Assembly (NCBI GenBank): GCA_964023275.1
Contig: OZ029914.1
Coordinates: forward strand, 32,433,351-32,497,350
Source of the DNA: Norana najaformis
Taxonomy: Eukaryota; Annelida; Clitellata; Crassiclitellata; Hormogastridae
Reading direction: 5' to 3'
Length of the DNA: 64,000 nt
Positions 7,845 through 32,290 of this stretch are shown here, piece by piece (the first letter of the stretch is position 1; every line of letters starts with the position of its first letter). Below the pieces are notes generated by a model, which did not search any database, had not been told where the DNA came from, and saw nothing but the letters and a program-made list of their open reading frames with translations. The translations under genes and the position numbers were made by a program.

Positions 7845-8760
7845 CTAATAGTAATCTCGAGAATGCTACAGCGCCCTGCGAAAGCTAAGTCGCGGAAACA
7901 GCGCTCGTGAATAAGCTGCGCATAGCTTTTTAGTAGCACTTTATAAATTTCGAGTTTACGATTTCGATTTCGATTTCTTTTACGATTACGGAGCCAGGTG
8001 CTCAGTCAAAACAAGATCGATAGGCAAGAAGGGTTCGGTTCCAGGTCAAGATCTAAGTTTCAGTCAGGCAGACAGTCGGACGGCTACGGTGGATGATACT
8101 TGAAATTGGAGAGATAACGGGAAGAGGAAGAATCAGGATAAGAATTTTTAAAGCAATATTTTCAATTTTGAGTGAAAGATCAGCCCAGAGATTGCAAGAG
8201 ATGAAGACTAGCGTGGGTGAGTTCGTATGATGGGTTAGAAAATTGTCGTAGTTCTGGCGGGAGTTTATTCCAGAGGGATGGAGCAGCTATGGCTTTGGAG
8301 TGATTTTCAAATTTTAAGGATGAGGTACGTGGCTGGAGAGCGGAGAAGTGTCATGGCAGAAAATGATCGGGTTGAACGGAATGTTTGGATTGTAGATAAT
8401 TGTAGAAGATAGGAGGATTAGGAGGATTGAAGTGTATTGTAGGTAAATTATTAGACTCTACTTTATTCGCTCAGGTATTTTAAGCCAGTGAAACGATTTG
8501 AGAACAGAGGTGACGTGATGGTGCTTGGGGGATTTCCGTGACAGCACGAGCGAGAACATTCTGGATACCTTGAAGGCGATTTATCTGAGTTGTGTCTATA
8601 TTTAGGAAAAGTGAATTGCAGTTTTCTTGTTTTGCATGGTGAGATTACTTCCAGGAATCTACACTGAGATCGATTGTTCGCCCATGGGCCCTTAATATTG
8701 GTCTCCTTGACTTCTGCACAAGAAAAGTAGTCAGCCGCTGAGTGAAACATTGCACAGAAA
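7845..8760 (-). repeat. CR1-like LINE family A, two 3' copies, one with ORF2 C-terminus
   Basis: A diverged tail copy (about 7845-7925) is followed by a longer one (about 7950-8760). The latter runs, on the minus strand, from an ORF2 fragment resembling LDYCNSLF...IQNVLARAVTE...HWLKIPE down through the 3' UTR to a CGATTT/ATTACG tail. Frames are interrupted. The segment near 8560-8630 is the uninterrupted counterpart of the site into which the hAT element at 28135-32138 inserted. Confidence 0.65.
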
Positions 8761-11900: not shown

Positions 11901-14900
11901 CACAGATACAACTGATCAAAATCAGTTTTTGAATTGTCATGACTCTTAATGGTACATTTATATAGACAAAACACAAACACAAAATCTCTGCCAAACAGGT
12001 TGTCAGCTGTCAGTGCAACTGAGACAAAAAAGACAGTGAAGCTTATGTAACAGATTATTAGGCAACCTGATCGCAAATGATGGGCAGACCGGACCATATC
12101 ATCACTGTTTTATACTAAATTACTAGGCATAATAATTGTGAATGGTCATCATGTGATCGTGTCGTTAGATAGACGAAAGAGATGACAGGAAGCACATGAA
12201 AAAGTAATAAGAGCAGTTGAGAGTCTGTGGATGGTACTTCCTGTGCACAGCTTCAGTCTGCACTTTTGAACTTATCTGATTTCAGTTGTATTGTGTTGCA
12301 TTTTATGATGCAAAAGGGAAACTCGAGAAATTTAAAAAAAAACGTGACGCATGACTAAACGTGACTAATGACTTGTAGAATGCCACTGTATAAAACCCCA
12401 ACATTAAGAATACAAATAGAAGAACAGCATAAAAGATTAATTAATAGTTAGATGGAACAAAAGTTTAGAGTTACTTGTCTTGTCTTGTCCATCCTCATTG
12501 CTGCGGATCGGAGACCATGGCCAACGACGTCAGTCTTCTCCACTCAGTTCTGTCTCTTGCCTTCCTTGTGCAGTCCGCCATCGACATCCCCATCCACTCC
12601 GTCACGTCATCCCTCCAGCGCCTTCTCGGTCTTCCCCGAGGTCTTTTTCCCTCCATATATCCCTGGCATATGAAGGCCGGTAGATTGTCTGCTCTAATCA
12701 TATGTCCAAAGTAGCTCAGCTTTCTGCTCATCACCACCTCCAGCAGGCGTCGCTCCGGCTTCAGCTCTTCCAGAATCGACTCATTTGTCCTGTGCTCACT
12801 CCAACTGACCCTCAGCATCCTCCTGTACGTCGTCATTTCAAACGCTGTTATTCTTCTTCTGTCTTCTTTCCGCAGTGTCCAGGTCTCACACCCATACAGC
12901 GCCACCGACCACACCAGTGCGCTTACGAGCCTTAGTTTCAGCCAGGTTCCCAGAGCCCTGTCCCTCCAGATCACTGCAAGCGAGCTCATGATCGTGCGCG
13001 CCATCCCCAATCTGGCTCTTATTTCTCTGCCCCCATCTCCAGATTGCTCTATCACAGCACCCAGGTATCTGAAAGACTCCACCTGTTCCAGGACTGCACC
13101 ATTACACATGATCGTAATTCTTTCATGTTCTCTGTCCACTACCATCACCTTTGTTTTCTTGGTATTGATTTCCAGTCCATAGTTATTTGACGCCTCGTTG
13201 ACTCTGTCCAGCAGCTGTTGGAGCTTTTCTCTTGACGTTGCAATCAGCACAATGTCATCCGCATATCGCAAGTTATTTATCGTTCTCCCGCTTATTGTTA
13301 CACCAATCCACGTAAGTTCGTCGGCAGATTCTCTCATCACCTCCTCCGAGTAGCTGTTAAACGACATTGGCGATATCAAGCATCCCTGTCTCACCCCTTT
13401 TCCAATTCTGAACCAATCTGTAATTTCCTTCTCTATGCGGACAGCCGCCTGTTGATTGTCGTAGAGGATTCTAAGTGTTTCCACCACTTGGTTGTTCATA
13501 CCCATTTCTTTTAGCACTTTCCATAGTTTCCCGTGTTTAACTGAGTCAAAAGCCTTTTTGTAATCTATGAAAGCTATGTATAAAGGTGTTTGATGCTCTC
13601 TTGCCTTTTCGATGATAATCCTCAGGTTGAGTATTTGATCCCTCGTACCCACGCCTTTCCTGAAACCCATCTGTACATCCGCTAACTCTTCATCCGCCGT
13701 CTTCTGCATTCTGCAAAGCAAGACTCTGAGCATTATTTTGCTTGCATGACTGATTAATGCAATAGTCCTATGTTCCTCGCATTTCGTTGTACCTTTGACT
13801 TTCGGTATTGTGATGAAAATTGACTTAACCCAGTCCTCTGGCCATTCCTCACTTTCCAATATCCTGTTACACAGTCTACAGAAGACTGCCACTACCTCAT
13901 CGCTGTCCACTTTCCATAGCTCTGCCGGCAGTTCATCCACTCCCGTAGCCTTACCTCTTGGGAGCCTCTTGATTGCATCCCTGACCTCATCCATCAGTAT
14001 CACCATTGGAGTCGCCCTAATATCCATCATCTCCCAATGCGCTATCTTCCGCCCCTTCCTCCTGGTTTTCATCCTTATACAGCTCTTCTGTGTATTGTTT
14101 CCATCTTCTTTTTATGCTCTCCATATCCGACAGCAACCTTCCTTTTTCATCCTCGATGTTCCTTTGCTTAGCCGTCATATCTTGACGGAGCTTTTTTAGA
14201 ACCTCGTAAGCTCTCTTTGTGTTCCCTCTTTTCATGTTGTCTTCAATATCTCCGCATTGTTGTTCCATCCACTCTTTTTTGTCCCTCCTGCAGTATCTCT
14301 GCACTTCACTTTTTGCCTCTTTGTATGCTTTCTGGCCCTCTTTGGTTCTATTCTTTTCTGATTTCAAATTTCTTCTTACTTCAATCAGTTTCAAAGTTTC
14401 CAGTGTCATCCAGTTACATAACCAGTAAATGATAATTTTTAGGCATATGATTAAAAATGCAGATATCACTTAGTTGTCTCTAATATTACCATAGCATACT
14501 CTCTTTCTGCTGTATTTGTTTTCTTTGTAGTTTGTATAAACAGTAAAAGATCAGCTGCCCATTGGTAATTTTGTCTGTGCGATGATTTTGGTTTCTTGTT
14601 TTTCAGGGTTTGTGCCTTTTGGGTCACCGATCGTAAGTGCCAGACTTTCTTATTTAATTTTATTTATTAAATCTTTTGTATTAAAACAGAAATAGTCTTT
14701 CTGATTTTAGTTGCAGGACTGTGATCTCGTTTCAAGAAACTGTTTCAAAAAAGGCACCTAATCTGGTCTATATGTAATGTTGATGAGTGGTGGTGAGACC
14801 ATGGTTATGTTGGAGCAACACTAAGTGAATGTATTATGTTGATCATGGGTATAAGTGGACATTTGCTACTTACTAAGGGTATAAGTTGTTAATAAGAAGT

Positions 14901-22178: not shown

Positions 22179-27111
<4,933 letters not shown>

Positions 27112-28039: not shown

Positions 28040-28134
28040 GAAATTGTAAAACAAAGTGCAGGACTGTGAAGGTTTTGGTGACGGCACGAGCGACAGCATC
28101 TGGATAGCTTGAAAGGAATTGTTTGGGTGGTGTC
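28040..28134 (-). repeat. CR1-like LINE, downstream half split by the hAT insertion
   Basis: GTGACGGCACGAGCGACAGC ... GGATAGCTTGAAAGG ... GTGTC aligns with the family A copy at 8553-8594. The remainder of the same LINE resumes at 32147 (TATATTCATGAAAAGTG), matching 8595 onward. The two halves were continuous before insertion. Confidence 0.8.
28127..28134. repeat. Left target-site duplication, GTGGTGTC
   Basis: Eight bases identical to 32139-32146, directly flanking the element ends at 28135 and 32138. Eight bp is the length made by hAT transposases. Confidence 0.85.
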
Positions 28135-28405
28135 CAGAGGCGTCGATCCGTAGTAAACTTTGGAGGGGCCCGGGCCTATAGTGGGGTCTGGGCGCAAAGC
28201 CTCTGTCGGGTTCCAGAGGCAAAGCCTCTGGTATGGGGGTCAAGAATAGGCCTAATACAGGAAGAATGAGAACTTTATCAGTACATAGCTGCCTTTTACT
28301 GATTTTACAGGTAAAATATTGCTGGCCAACCAATGGTCGAGCTCTCATGCTCAAAATATTGCCTGAGCCCGGGTTCCGGGGGCACCCATATGATTGACGC
28401 CTCTG
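28135..28405. mobile_element. hAT-type MITE, 271 bp, first end copy
   Basis: CAGAGGCGTCGATCC at the left and GATTGACGCCTCTG at the right give matching terminal repeats. Interior blocks GGGCCTATAGTGGGGTCTGG, AAGCCTCTGGTATGGGGGTC and GATTTTACAGGTAAAATATT recur at 30747 or 32080. Its inner flank (GGAACATT) does not match its outer flank (GTGGTGTC), so it is not a simple independent insertion. Confidence 0.65.
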
Positions 28406-28491
28406 GGAACATTGGTGTCAATCCAAATCTGTGAAGTAGCACCGCAAGAAAATTATTTGCATCAGAAAGACCAGCGTAACTGCTTCCCAAA

Positions 28492-29110
28492 TAGAGGTGT
28501 CGAACTATAGGCCACATTTAGTGAACACATTTTTCCTTTCTACTTCCTCTAATAAAATTACTTATTTAATTCTAGATCCCAAATTTTTCGTTAATAAAGA
28601 CTGGATTGGACCCATATAGATTCCTTGGATTGGACCTAAAGACTATTCTTTGAGCATAGACAAAAGTAAAACCATAATTCTTTTCAAAAATGTTTAAATT
28701 GCATTAGCAAGATGGCAGCACAGGTTCATTAATGTCAGTTATATTCGCTAGGTGACAGCACGGTTTTGAAAAAGACCATTAGATCAAATCGCGCGCTGGT
28801 TACAGGAATCCTATGCACGTGTTGATCACTCCTTCACATTCTTTCGGAATGTACGTCTGGCTGTCCCTGTGCTTGTCTGTCGGTCTGTCTGTGTTTATGG
28901 CGGATTAGGCAGCTGGAAAGTGTGCTGCCTGCAGATACGAGAAGGATTGTTGACGTTATTACTACATTTCGGACGCTTGATTTCTTTGTTTGCATATAAT
29001 TAGTCATGTATGTTATTTCCTGCCCATCCCGCTGAGCACCTGCTTTTAAAGGTTTCGCTGTGAGTGTGGCGTTGCCAGATCCATACGTAATGCACCTGCC
29101 TACTTAAAAT
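28492..29110 (+). repeat. Unnamed repeat, copy 1
   Basis: Aligns in the same order with 30175-30715: TAGAGGTGTCG start, TCTAATAAAATTACTT, TTCGCTAGGTGACAGCACGG, CACTCCTT then a CTGTCTGTCTGTGTTTATGG-like stretch, GATTAGGCAGCTGG, CTGCCCATCCC. No open frame is shared. The family is unknown to me; the TAGAGGTG start is hAT-like. Confidence 0.65.
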
Positions 29111-29224
29111 AGTTTTGCCGCCCTTTCTCGGATCTGGCTGGTCACCGATCCCTTATTAAATGGAAAAAGCCTGAACAGCGCCCTTTTCTTCGGCCTCGGC
29201 TGTGCTACGGCGCTATATAAATTT

Positions 29225-29254
29225 TATTATTATTATTAGTGTTTGTTATTGTTC

Positions 29255-29312
<58 letters not shown>

Positions 29313-29334
29313 CATTATTATTATCATTATTATT

Positions 29335-29381
<47 letters not shown>

Positions 29382-29405
29382 TACTACTACTACTACTATT
29401 ATTAA
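29225..29405. repeat. (ATT)n / (ATC)n / (ACT)n microsatellite
   Basis: A compound trinucleotide tract follows GGCGCTATATAAATTTT, which looks like a LINE or SINE 3' terminus. Homopolymer-like peptides from this stretch are artefacts. Confidence 0.95.
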
Positions 29406-29499
29406 GTGGGGAAGACTTAAGGGCAGGAACAAAATGTTGGAGGAAATGAATCTTCGGTGAGAAATATAGAAAAAAACTGATGTGGAGGGAAGAATGTTT

Positions 29500-29880
29500 G
29501 CACACACGTGCCACACCACTCTGGAATAAACTCCCCCCAGAATTGCCACAGTTTTCTGACCCATCATACAAACTCATCGATGCTCCACCGCTTGCAATTT
29601 CTGCTTCGGCCTTTCATTGAAAGCTCAAAACATTCCTCTTTCACAGATTGTACCCTGACACCCGTTCTTCCTCATCTCTCTCTCCTCTTCAACCCCAAAC
29701 ACCACCACCCGTAGCTGCCACCCTGTCTCTCCATCTGACTTTTTGATCTTGACTTGGAACTGAACCCTTTTGCCTATCGATTTTGTTTTGACTGAGCGCC
29801 TGTGAATAAGCTGGTACTCGCGGCGCGGCTTTCGTTGGGCGCTGTAGAAATCTCAGAATTACGATTACGATTACAACTTT
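29500..29880 (+). repeat. CR1-like LINE family A, ORF2 C-terminus and 3' UTR
   Basis: The longest sense copy: CTCTGGAATAAACTCCCCCC encodes LWNKLPP, then AGCTCAAAACATTCCTCTTT (KLKTFLF), the 3' UTR blocks and a TTACGATTACGATTAC tail. This copy links the family A 3' end to a CR1/L2-like ORF2. It is 5' truncated and has frame breaks. Confidence 0.8.
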
Positions 29881-30174
29881 GTCACCAGGCAGTCAAATTT
29901 GGTAACGATTTATGCTGGAAAGTAAATGGGCCCGTGTCTAGGACCTTGGGATTCATCCATTGCCGGCTCAAGGATCAACGGAGTTGGAATGAACGTGTCC
30001 CATACGTCCTAATGTTGGACATGGTAGCCTTATTGCAGTAGCTTCCAGTGTTTAACATCTTATGGCTGCCAGGGTCGTTGACGTCGACCTTTACCTTACT
30101 TTACCATTAAAGTCATGCGTTTACACAAAATATGCGTGGGGAGGTCAGCTAACTTACTTAAAAATAGAGGTGTC

Positions 30175-30715
30175 GGCGTGTATCCGACATGGAATGAACA
30201 AGTTTGTTCTTTACCACTTTCGCATCTAATAAAATTACTTTAACTGATGTTATGCCCTAATATTTTACTAATAAAAACATAGTTTAGCAAAAAGAAATAT
30301 CTTCGAAAATAAGTAGAAATTAAACAGCGTCTTCTACATTGATTGTGAAAAGACGCATGCCTATTGAAAATGGTTCATTTGCATTCGCTAGGTGGGAGCA
30401 CGGTTTCAAAAGCCCATTGAGCTGGCAGTTTCAACACGAATTCCAAACACGTAAGCTATTGACTACTCCTTTTCGTTGCTTCTCTGATTGGATGTCTGTC
30501 TGTCTCTGTGTTTGTCTGTCTGTTTATCTATGTTTATGGCAGATTAGGCAGCTGGTATGCCTTTATGCAAGTGTAAAAGCCTTGTTGGCTGTATTTCTAA
30601 TTTTAGGCAGTATCCTTTGCATGCACGTGTGTCTACTTCACTGACTGCCCATCCCACACAATACTTTTTAAAGATATTGTTGCGGGTCTGGTGATGACAG
30701 CCGGCCTACTTAGAC
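30175..30715 (+). repeat. Unnamed repeat, copy 2
   Basis: Direct copy of 28492-29110 with visible divergence and small length differences, ending just before the second hAT left end at 30747. Confidence 0.65.
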
Positions 30716-30746
30716 GAGCATGTCTTCGGGGTGGAATGATTGTTCC

Positions 30747-30890
30747 CAGAGGCGTCGATCCGTCTTAAACATTGGGGGGGCCGGGCCTATAATGGGGTCT
30801 GGATGCGAAGCCCTATTGGGCAAAGACCCTGGTATGGGGGTCAAGATCGAAGTAGGCCTAATGCAGACAGACGCAAAGCCCAAAGCTCGG
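30747..30890 (+). mobile_element. hAT-type MITE, second left end
   Basis: CAGAGGCGTCGATCCGT, GGGCCTATAATGGGGTCTGG and CTGGTATGGGGGTCAAGA match the left end at 28135. Its partner right end is most simply the one at 32080-32138, with the LINE at 31130-32010 inserted between. Confidence 0.65.
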
Positions 30891-31129
30891 AAGACAAACA
30901 ATGAGAAATGTCGCTAACATTATTTACAATGGAATGTCAACTTAAGTAGGCCTATACACAGCAGTTATATGGCAGTAATGCTAAAGCAGCGCAATATGAG
31001 CACATAATTATTTATTCGAAAATGAACTTGACAAGATGTTCTTCCTGATTGTGCTTCTTATAGCAAACTTAGCCGCTATTGTAGGTTTCAGATTGCCTGT
31101 CATCTACTTCAGTTTTTATCACTCTAATC

Positions 31130-32010
31130 TAATCTAAGAACTTCTATAGCGTCAATGTAATAATGCTCAAATCATCATTCGATGGTCGCTGCTAAAAAAT
31201 CATTGTCCAAGTCAAATTCCATGGTGAGTCCGGGTCGAAAAGCCTAAGAGGAGTCCAGAAGACACAGAGACAGCCTACGGAGGAAATAAGTTCAGGAAGA
31301 GGTGAGTTTTTAGTCGAGGTCTGAAGGCCGAAACAGACTTTGCCGAGCGAACATTTGTCGGAAGAGAGTTACAGAGTCTAGGACCAGCGACAGAAAAGGC
31401 ACACCTTCCAAGAGCTGTTCTTGTCCACGGAATAGTCAGATTTACACAGCTAGAAGACCTGGTCGAGTAGAGATAAGTCTTGGGAGTCAGAACAGAGCGA
31501 AGATAGCGAGGTTAGCTGAATACATGTAGAGTCTTGAATACAATTAGTCCAGTCTTGAAAAATATGCGCTTTTCTACGGGAAACCAATGCAACGCATTTA
31601 AGATTGGTGATATAATCATATTTTGGAGTTTTAGTGATAGCTCTTGCCAATGTATTTTGGACTCTTTGAAGCTTCAACAAATTAGCTTTAGAAATGCCAG
31701 TAAGAAGCGAGTTGCAGTAGTCAAGACGGCTGGAGACTAGAGCATTAGCCAAACAAACCAGGACAGAGAAGGGAATGCGGTGCCTAATTTTACGGATATC
31801 ACGAATGTGGTAGTGGGCAGACCTACATATAGAATTAATACGTTCATTGAATGACAGGTTGGAGTCAAATACAACACCCAAATTGTGGGTTGAACAGTTG
31901 CGTTGTACGACACAGATGCCTAGATGGACAGAAGTCAAAGAATTAAATTTAGTCAGTTGCTCTGAGGTTCCAAAAAGGAGAAACGTACAATCGGAAATTA
32001 CGGACTGGGA
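31130..32010 (-). repeat. CR1-like LINE family B, ORF2 C-terminus and 3' end
   Basis: The minus-strand frame 31938-31450 reads HNLGVVFDSNLSF...SRLDYCNSLLTGI...LQRVQNTLARAITKTP, a CR1/L2-like ORF2 tail. It continues in another frame as FSVAGPRL(W/C)NSLP...LKTHLF to about 31260. The 3' end is TTAGATTAGATTAGA (seen as TCTAATCTAATCTAA at 31123-31137). It is 5' truncated with at least one frameshift. Confidence 0.8.
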
Positions 32011-32079
32011 TTGTTTACTAAAGTCTTAAAGTGAAGAATGACAACTTTTGTCAGTCCAGAGCTGCCTTGTACCGATTTT

Positions 32080-32138
32080 ACAGCTAAAATATTGCCGGGG
32101 CCCGGGCCCCAGGGGCACCCATAGGATCGACGCCACTG
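32080..32138 (+). mobile_element. hAT-type MITE, outer right end
   Basis: GATTTTACAGCTAAAATATT, GGGGCACCCATAGGATCGAC and terminal GCCACTG match the right end at 28405. The terminal repeat is followed directly by GTGGTGTC. Confidence 0.75.
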
Positions 32139-32146
32139 GTGGTGTC

Positions 32147-32290
32147 TATATTCATGAAAAGTGTATTGCAGTAGTCTAGTTTAGCATGGACTATGGGTGT
32201 GGCAATGGTAGGTGCGGTTTCGAAGTCACGCTTAGGTTGGATTTTGCGAAGGTAGCGGATAGACATGAAGGAAGAATTGAAAAGTGGGTG
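32147..32290 (-). repeat. CR1-like LINE, upstream half split by the hAT insertion
   Basis: The minus strand encodes SIRYLRKIQPKRDF...AKLDYCNTLFMNIDTT, an ORF2 segment that continues in sense on the other side of the element at 28134. Confidence 0.75.

Follow-up and report, generated by a model that had tools for sequence, protein, structure and literature searches.

The DNA analysed here is a 64,000-nucleotide stretch of the annelid Norana najaformis (GenBank assembly GCA_964023275.1, contig OZ029914.1, forward-strand positions 32,433,351 to 32,497,350), hereafter the window, and positions are counted from its first base. Within it, an old and degraded copy of a presumed long interspersed nuclear element (LINE) is interrupted by a 4,004-bp unit, at whose two extremes lie M1 and M2, copies of an element resembling a miniature inverted-repeat transposable element (MITE). 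The 4,020-base interval 28127-32146 that encloses the unit carries GTGGTGTC at both extremes, and the unit itself has inverted ends, CAGAGGCGTCGATCC running from 28135 and CAGTGGCGTCGATCC (reverse-complemented) ending at 32138, which are 15 bp long and mismatched at a single position. A preliminary description of this locus had reported both the identical 8-bp flanks and the 15-bp terminal repeats with one difference, and our inspection agrees with it on each count. Since a G lies upstream of both repeat copies, a direct repeat of 9 bp, GGTGGTGTC, may alternatively be read, in which case the right-hand G is the element's own final base. The 8-bp reading is preferred because it keeps the symmetrical CAG...CTG termini, as found at all four ends of M1 and M2.

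The significance of these junctions was assessed through a coordinate-free scan of the whole window for exact 8-bp direct flanks combined with 15-bp inverted ends (no more than two mismatches) lying within 8 kb. The 28127-32146 pair was the single match, and the same scan applied to 100 first-order Markov resamples yielded no pair at all. At the spacing of the unit, an 8-mer is shared in two of 59,980 position pairs, both of which stem from the GTGGTGTC repeat. The surrounding element, whose LINE identity and strand we assume from a reverse-transcriptase motif judged by eye, becomes collinear with an uninterrupted copy elsewhere in the window once the unit and one 8-bp copy are removed. When 36 x 36 trial junctions were compared, no join scored above the 61 obtained by this removal, a value also reached by its equivalent slides along the repeat and by two near neighbours. 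The duplication, the inverted ends and the interruption of the LINE are thus real and beyond chance. The earlier statement that the LINE breaks off at 28134 and is in register again at 32147 is borne out by the collinearity and the trial junctions; the second LINE copy offered as the uninterrupted site is indeed uninterrupted, although, being a paralogue, it does not represent an allelic empty site.

M1 and M2 share their orientation and can be aligned at both ends. M2 is interrupted by an unassigned segment of ~250 bp together with a presumed LINE fragment, and its alignment to M1 accordingly falls into three pieces, with identities of 77%, 86% and 85% over 137, 66 and 54 columns, respectively; excluding the interruption, the two copies are 83% identical over 220 columns. 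A search for the terminal inverted repeat (TIR) allowing up to three mismatches gave 10 matches, against 3.3 expected, four of these being the ends of M1 and M2 and two more lying just inward of M1. The preliminary proposal that MITE copies supply the ends of the unit is supported, the ends in question being the outer ones of M1 and M2, each of which is two-ended. Inward of the MITEs lie X1 and X2, copies of a diverged direct repeat sharing 61-63% identity, one of which adjoins each MITE (Table 1).

The profile search that finds M1 and M2 was itself built from M1 and M2 and so provides no independent test of them. Profile searching of the window placed the right half of a third, degenerate copy at 22436-22518 (16.3 bits, E 1.4e-4), from which it follows that the MITE family is dispersed; no convincing end of a left half was found near these positions. 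That right half overlaps a reading frame with a trypsin match. Just inward of M1 are two TIR-like motifs, 28410-28423 and 28492-28505 (3 mismatches of 14), which are perhaps the ends of a related element. The exact right-end pattern of the MITE had no match in a viral-contig collection or in a genome-contig collection, and the TIR strings were not found in the text of published papers.

Table 1. Features of the unit, of its host LINE and of the uninterrupted reference copy (window positions).
Feature	Position	Strand	Remarks
Host LINE, left part, cut at the insertion site	28073..28134	-	Against 8533-8596, 78% over 64 columns
Target site duplication, left copy, GTGGTGTC	28127..28134		Identical to right copy
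M1, complete 271-bp MITE-like element, TIR CAGAGGCGTCGATC..GATTGACGCCTCTG	28135..28405	+	Alignable with M2 at both ends
X1, first copy of diverged direct repeat	28406..29107	+	Best local alignment 28450-29106; left limit against M1 uncertain
Interior filler	29108..30101		Trinucleotide microsatellite 29224-29383 and high-copy repeat ~29509-29875; limits by eye
X2, second copy of diverged direct repeat	30102..30746	+	Best local alignment 30127-30712
M2, second MITE-like copy, two-ended	30747..32138	+	Three alignments to M1; interrupted from ~30872 to ~32032
Presumed LINE fragment inside M2	~31124..32025	-	191-amino-acid open frame 31450-32025; taken for a LINE on the basis of a sequence motif
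Target site duplication, right copy, GTGGTGTC	32139..32146		Identical to left copy
Host LINE, right part	32147..32189	-	32139-32189 against 8589-8639, 84% over 51 columns
Uninterrupted paralogous LINE copy, empty-site reference	8533..8639	-	Collinear with the host LINE

Read along the unit, the four MITE ends follow one another in the order +,-,+,-. Comparison of their 8-bp flanks gives agreement at all eight positions for the outermost pair, at 2/8 for M1 taken alone and at 4/8 for M2 taken alone. Since complete agreement is confined to the outermost flanks, the GTGGTGTC duplication goes with M1's left terminus and M2's right terminus, an arrangement characteristic of macrotransposons. In keeping with such an element, two separate two-ended copies occupy the extremes of the unit and the matching target site duplication (TSD) is restricted to its outermost ends.

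Other arrangements of the same parts were rejected on similar grounds. Later insertions into a single MITE would have given +,-, a possibility ruled out by the presence of two two-ended copies in the order observed; an interior built up in this way within one MITE was the outcome that the preliminary description had itself named as contradicting its proposal. Nesting of one MITE inside another would have produced +,+,-,-. Integration, by a single crossover, of a circle bearing one TSD-flanked MITE should leave equal inner flanks, and facing ends reinserting into the excised interior circle should leave direct inner repeats of 8 bp; the inner flanks agree at none of eight positions.

Short TIRs of the CAG...CTG type are a feature of hAT elements, and the ends of the unit are of this type. 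Together with the 8-bp length of the duplication (a 9-bp reading being possible, as noted above), this suggests assignment to non-autonomous hAT elements, with other superfamilies that make 8-bp duplications also compatible by sequence. P elements, for example, are described as making duplications of this length (PMC1562414).

We consider it probable that the unit is a hAT-type macrotransposon, in which two MITEs and the DNA between them were inserted as a block into the LINE. In its favour are the inverted ends, the duplication, the collinearity of the LINE, the presence of both ends in each MITE and the lack of matching flanks belonging to either MITE by itself. At the donor locus, M1 and M2 would have been hAT-type MITEs situated close together in the same orientation, and a hAT transposase acting in trans may have used M1's left end and M2's right end as a pair. 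Everything between these two ends would then have been inserted into the old LINE copy, presumably by a cut-and-paste route, with the making of one 8-bp duplication. The cargo would have extended at least over M1, X1/X2 and M2. The repeats of the middle (~29110-30100) and the sequences interrupting M2, its LINE included, may have been added later, in which case the unit may have measured ~1.85 kb on landing (271 + 702 + 645 + 232, the limits of X1 and X2 being approximate). The preliminary description had envisaged a block moving with other repeats aboard. Its sequence observations, its use of two MITE copies as the ends of one unit and its single 8-bp duplication are retained here; the transport of the full present interior is less certain, as the middle repeats could have arrived afterwards. 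The LINE at 31130-32010, which had been regarded as interior sequence between the ends, sits within M2 and not between the MITEs.

Several points weigh against a macrotransposon. The conclusion is based on one locus, and gene conversion from a donor of MITE-interior-MITE structure would give identical anatomy. A Pfam search of ten of the 23 frames of at least 60 amino acids in the unit found no transposase domain. Furthermore, the inner flanks GGAACATT and ATTGTTCC (28406-28413 and 30739-30746) are reverse complements at seven of eight positions, and plain macrotransposition does not predict such flanks. Among random pairs from the window a match of this quality occurs at a rate of 0.0006 (400,000 draws), a figure to be read in the knowledge that this was one among several post hoc comparisons.

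An alternative origin lies in recombination into a resident MITE, whereby a lone GTGGTGTC-flanked MITE in the LINE would subsequently have received the interior and the second MITE through ectopic gene conversion, or through crossover, with another MITE-bounded segment. Such exchange within MITEs would leave the outer junctions intact, and the family is dispersed, as the third copy at 22436-22518 attests. However, in its simplest form, the single crossover with a circle, this explanation predicts the equality of inner flanks that is lacking at all eight positions, while in its double-exchange form the donor must already have had two MITEs around this interior, and ~2.3 kb must have been transferred without homology at the target. 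We therefore rate recombination as unlikely, though as the foremost competitor of the macrotransposon. Coincidence, in the sense of two independent MITE insertions whose outer flanks happen to match, gains a little from the occurrence of at least one further MITE remnant elsewhere in the window. Against it, each MITE should then possess its own TSD and neither does (2/8 and 4/8), the collinearity of the LINE would require that the whole interior was formerly within the LINE, and no such pair arose in the 100 resamples; this explanation is scarcely credible.

The direct X repeats bear on a different possibility, namely a composite insertion formed by reversed-ends transposition during replication, comparable to those of maize Ac/fAc. 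Here the facing ends of neighbouring MITEs would have been inserted and their flanks re-replicated, yielding MITE-flank-junction-flank-MITE within one 8-bp duplication, with X1 and X2 as parts of the flanks. The outline of the unit matches that of the maize composite insertions as described (PMC4270019), an X repeat adjoins each MITE and there is a break between X1 and X2. Yet the identity of X1 and X2 is only ~61-63%, which makes them old paralogues and not fresh copies of one flank; in addition, the supposed junction is masked by repeats and there is no known donor locus. We regard a composite insertion as improbable. A broader proposition would have M1-X1-X2-M2 represent either a self-sustaining lineage of MITE-bounded macrotransposons in an animal, with several copies carrying different 8-bp duplications, or a product of replication-coupled reversed-ends transposition; taken as a whole, this appears rather unlikely.

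Plant Pack-TYPE transposons are non-autonomous DNA transposons that carry host DNA, the cargo lying within the ends of one element; in the present unit, by contrast, two two-ended MITEs bound the cargo and no gene fragment was recognised. Macrotransposons of the maize Ac/Ds system were reportedly the subject of work by Huang and Dooner in 2008. In the maize accounts cited here, up to 100 kb was mobilised by a macrotransposon bounded by a Ds and an Ac element (PMC3260210), while a 28-kb Ac macrotransposon left a modified 8-bp footprint on excision and one of 10.3 kb reinserted (PMC9910405). As the macrotransposon interpretation has it for our unit, two linked hAT elements employ their outer ends to move the intervening DNA, with an 8-bp TSD and a cargo of repeats (PMC9910405, PMC3260210). 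The difference is that the maize cases, as presented there, involve Ac, fAc or Ds with a known transposase, and their excision was seen, whereas here the ends are MITE-like and the unit is old and known from sequence alone (PMC9910405, PMC3260210).

The composite insertions of maize Ac/fAc are attributed to reversed-ends transposition, and one is described as TSD-flanked without tandem duplication (PMC4270019); composite insertions involving re-replication are described for this same system (PMC4270019, PMC9910405). Our unit has an 8-bp TSD at the target in common with them, and would also share their succession of transposon, flank, junction, flank and transposon, but in the maize insertions the flanks were newly copied from a known donor, unlike the diverged X repeats (PMC4270019). 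Alternative transposition is also mentioned for snapdragon and for the P elements of Drosophila, and has been proposed for Arabidopsis VANDAL21 (PMC12312487). An animal precedent is provided by AgaP2-P12MITE of Anopheles gambiae, which has been proposed to stem from two P elements that underwent macrotransposition en bloc, again neighbours with 8-bp TSDs (PMC1562414). That case belongs to the P superfamily and was deduced from an internally deleted MITE of chimeric 5'/3' make-up, whereas in Norana the two bounding elements are still there and two-ended (PMC1562414). Finally, bacterial TIME-COMPs are composites in which the sequence between two Tn3-family MITEs is mobilised, so that two non-autonomous miniature elements bound a segment as they do here, in either direct or inverse orientation (PMC13367494). 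The cases of that study carry antibiotic resistance genes, whereas no cargo gene was recognised in our unit (PMC13367494).

If the unit is indeed a macrotransposon, two gene-free MITEs sufficed to transport other DNA as a block within an animal genome, and a mechanism worked out in maize Ac/Ds is extended to an animal. Understood thus, the locus offers one well-preserved instance of an event of known type, notable for its MITE ends and its animal host. Were the lineage or the reversed-ends reading correct, gene-free miniature elements would constitute a route for kilobase cargo in animals. MITEs are abundant in many genomes, and a scan for MITE-interior-MITE units having an 8-bp duplication at the outer ends only would therefore make the frequency of such block moves measurable.

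Regarding the remainder of the interior, the repeat at ~29509-29875 has nine other alignments within the window. A profile search with X1/X2 detected no further copy in the window above threshold, its one weak match, at 23408-23467 (E 0.026), being of low complexity. A frame in X2 gave a sub-threshold Pfam match to a viral profile (18 bits against a cut-off of 25), which we take as chance, and the open frame of the M2-internal LINE fragment had no Pfam match. An Rfam match below the gathering score of its family, at 29165-29258, lies partly over the microsatellite. A tRNA scan of the window returned none.

Elsewhere in the window, a trypsin-like serine protease gene lies in pieces on the reverse strand at 22179-24025, with the Pfam Trypsin domain in two frames, and a frame at 24644-25105 resembles the start of this gene, as judged by eye only. 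An exon-like frame on the reverse strand at 1168-1527 matches the zinc finger of nuclear receptors (zf-C4, 40.8 bits), a domain specific to animals. Together with the trypsin matches, it gives the window the look of animal DNA. A long reverse-transcriptase open frame of 538 amino acids (RVT_1, E 4.6e-39) occupies 12495-14111, also on the reverse strand, and is probably a comparatively young LINE copy.

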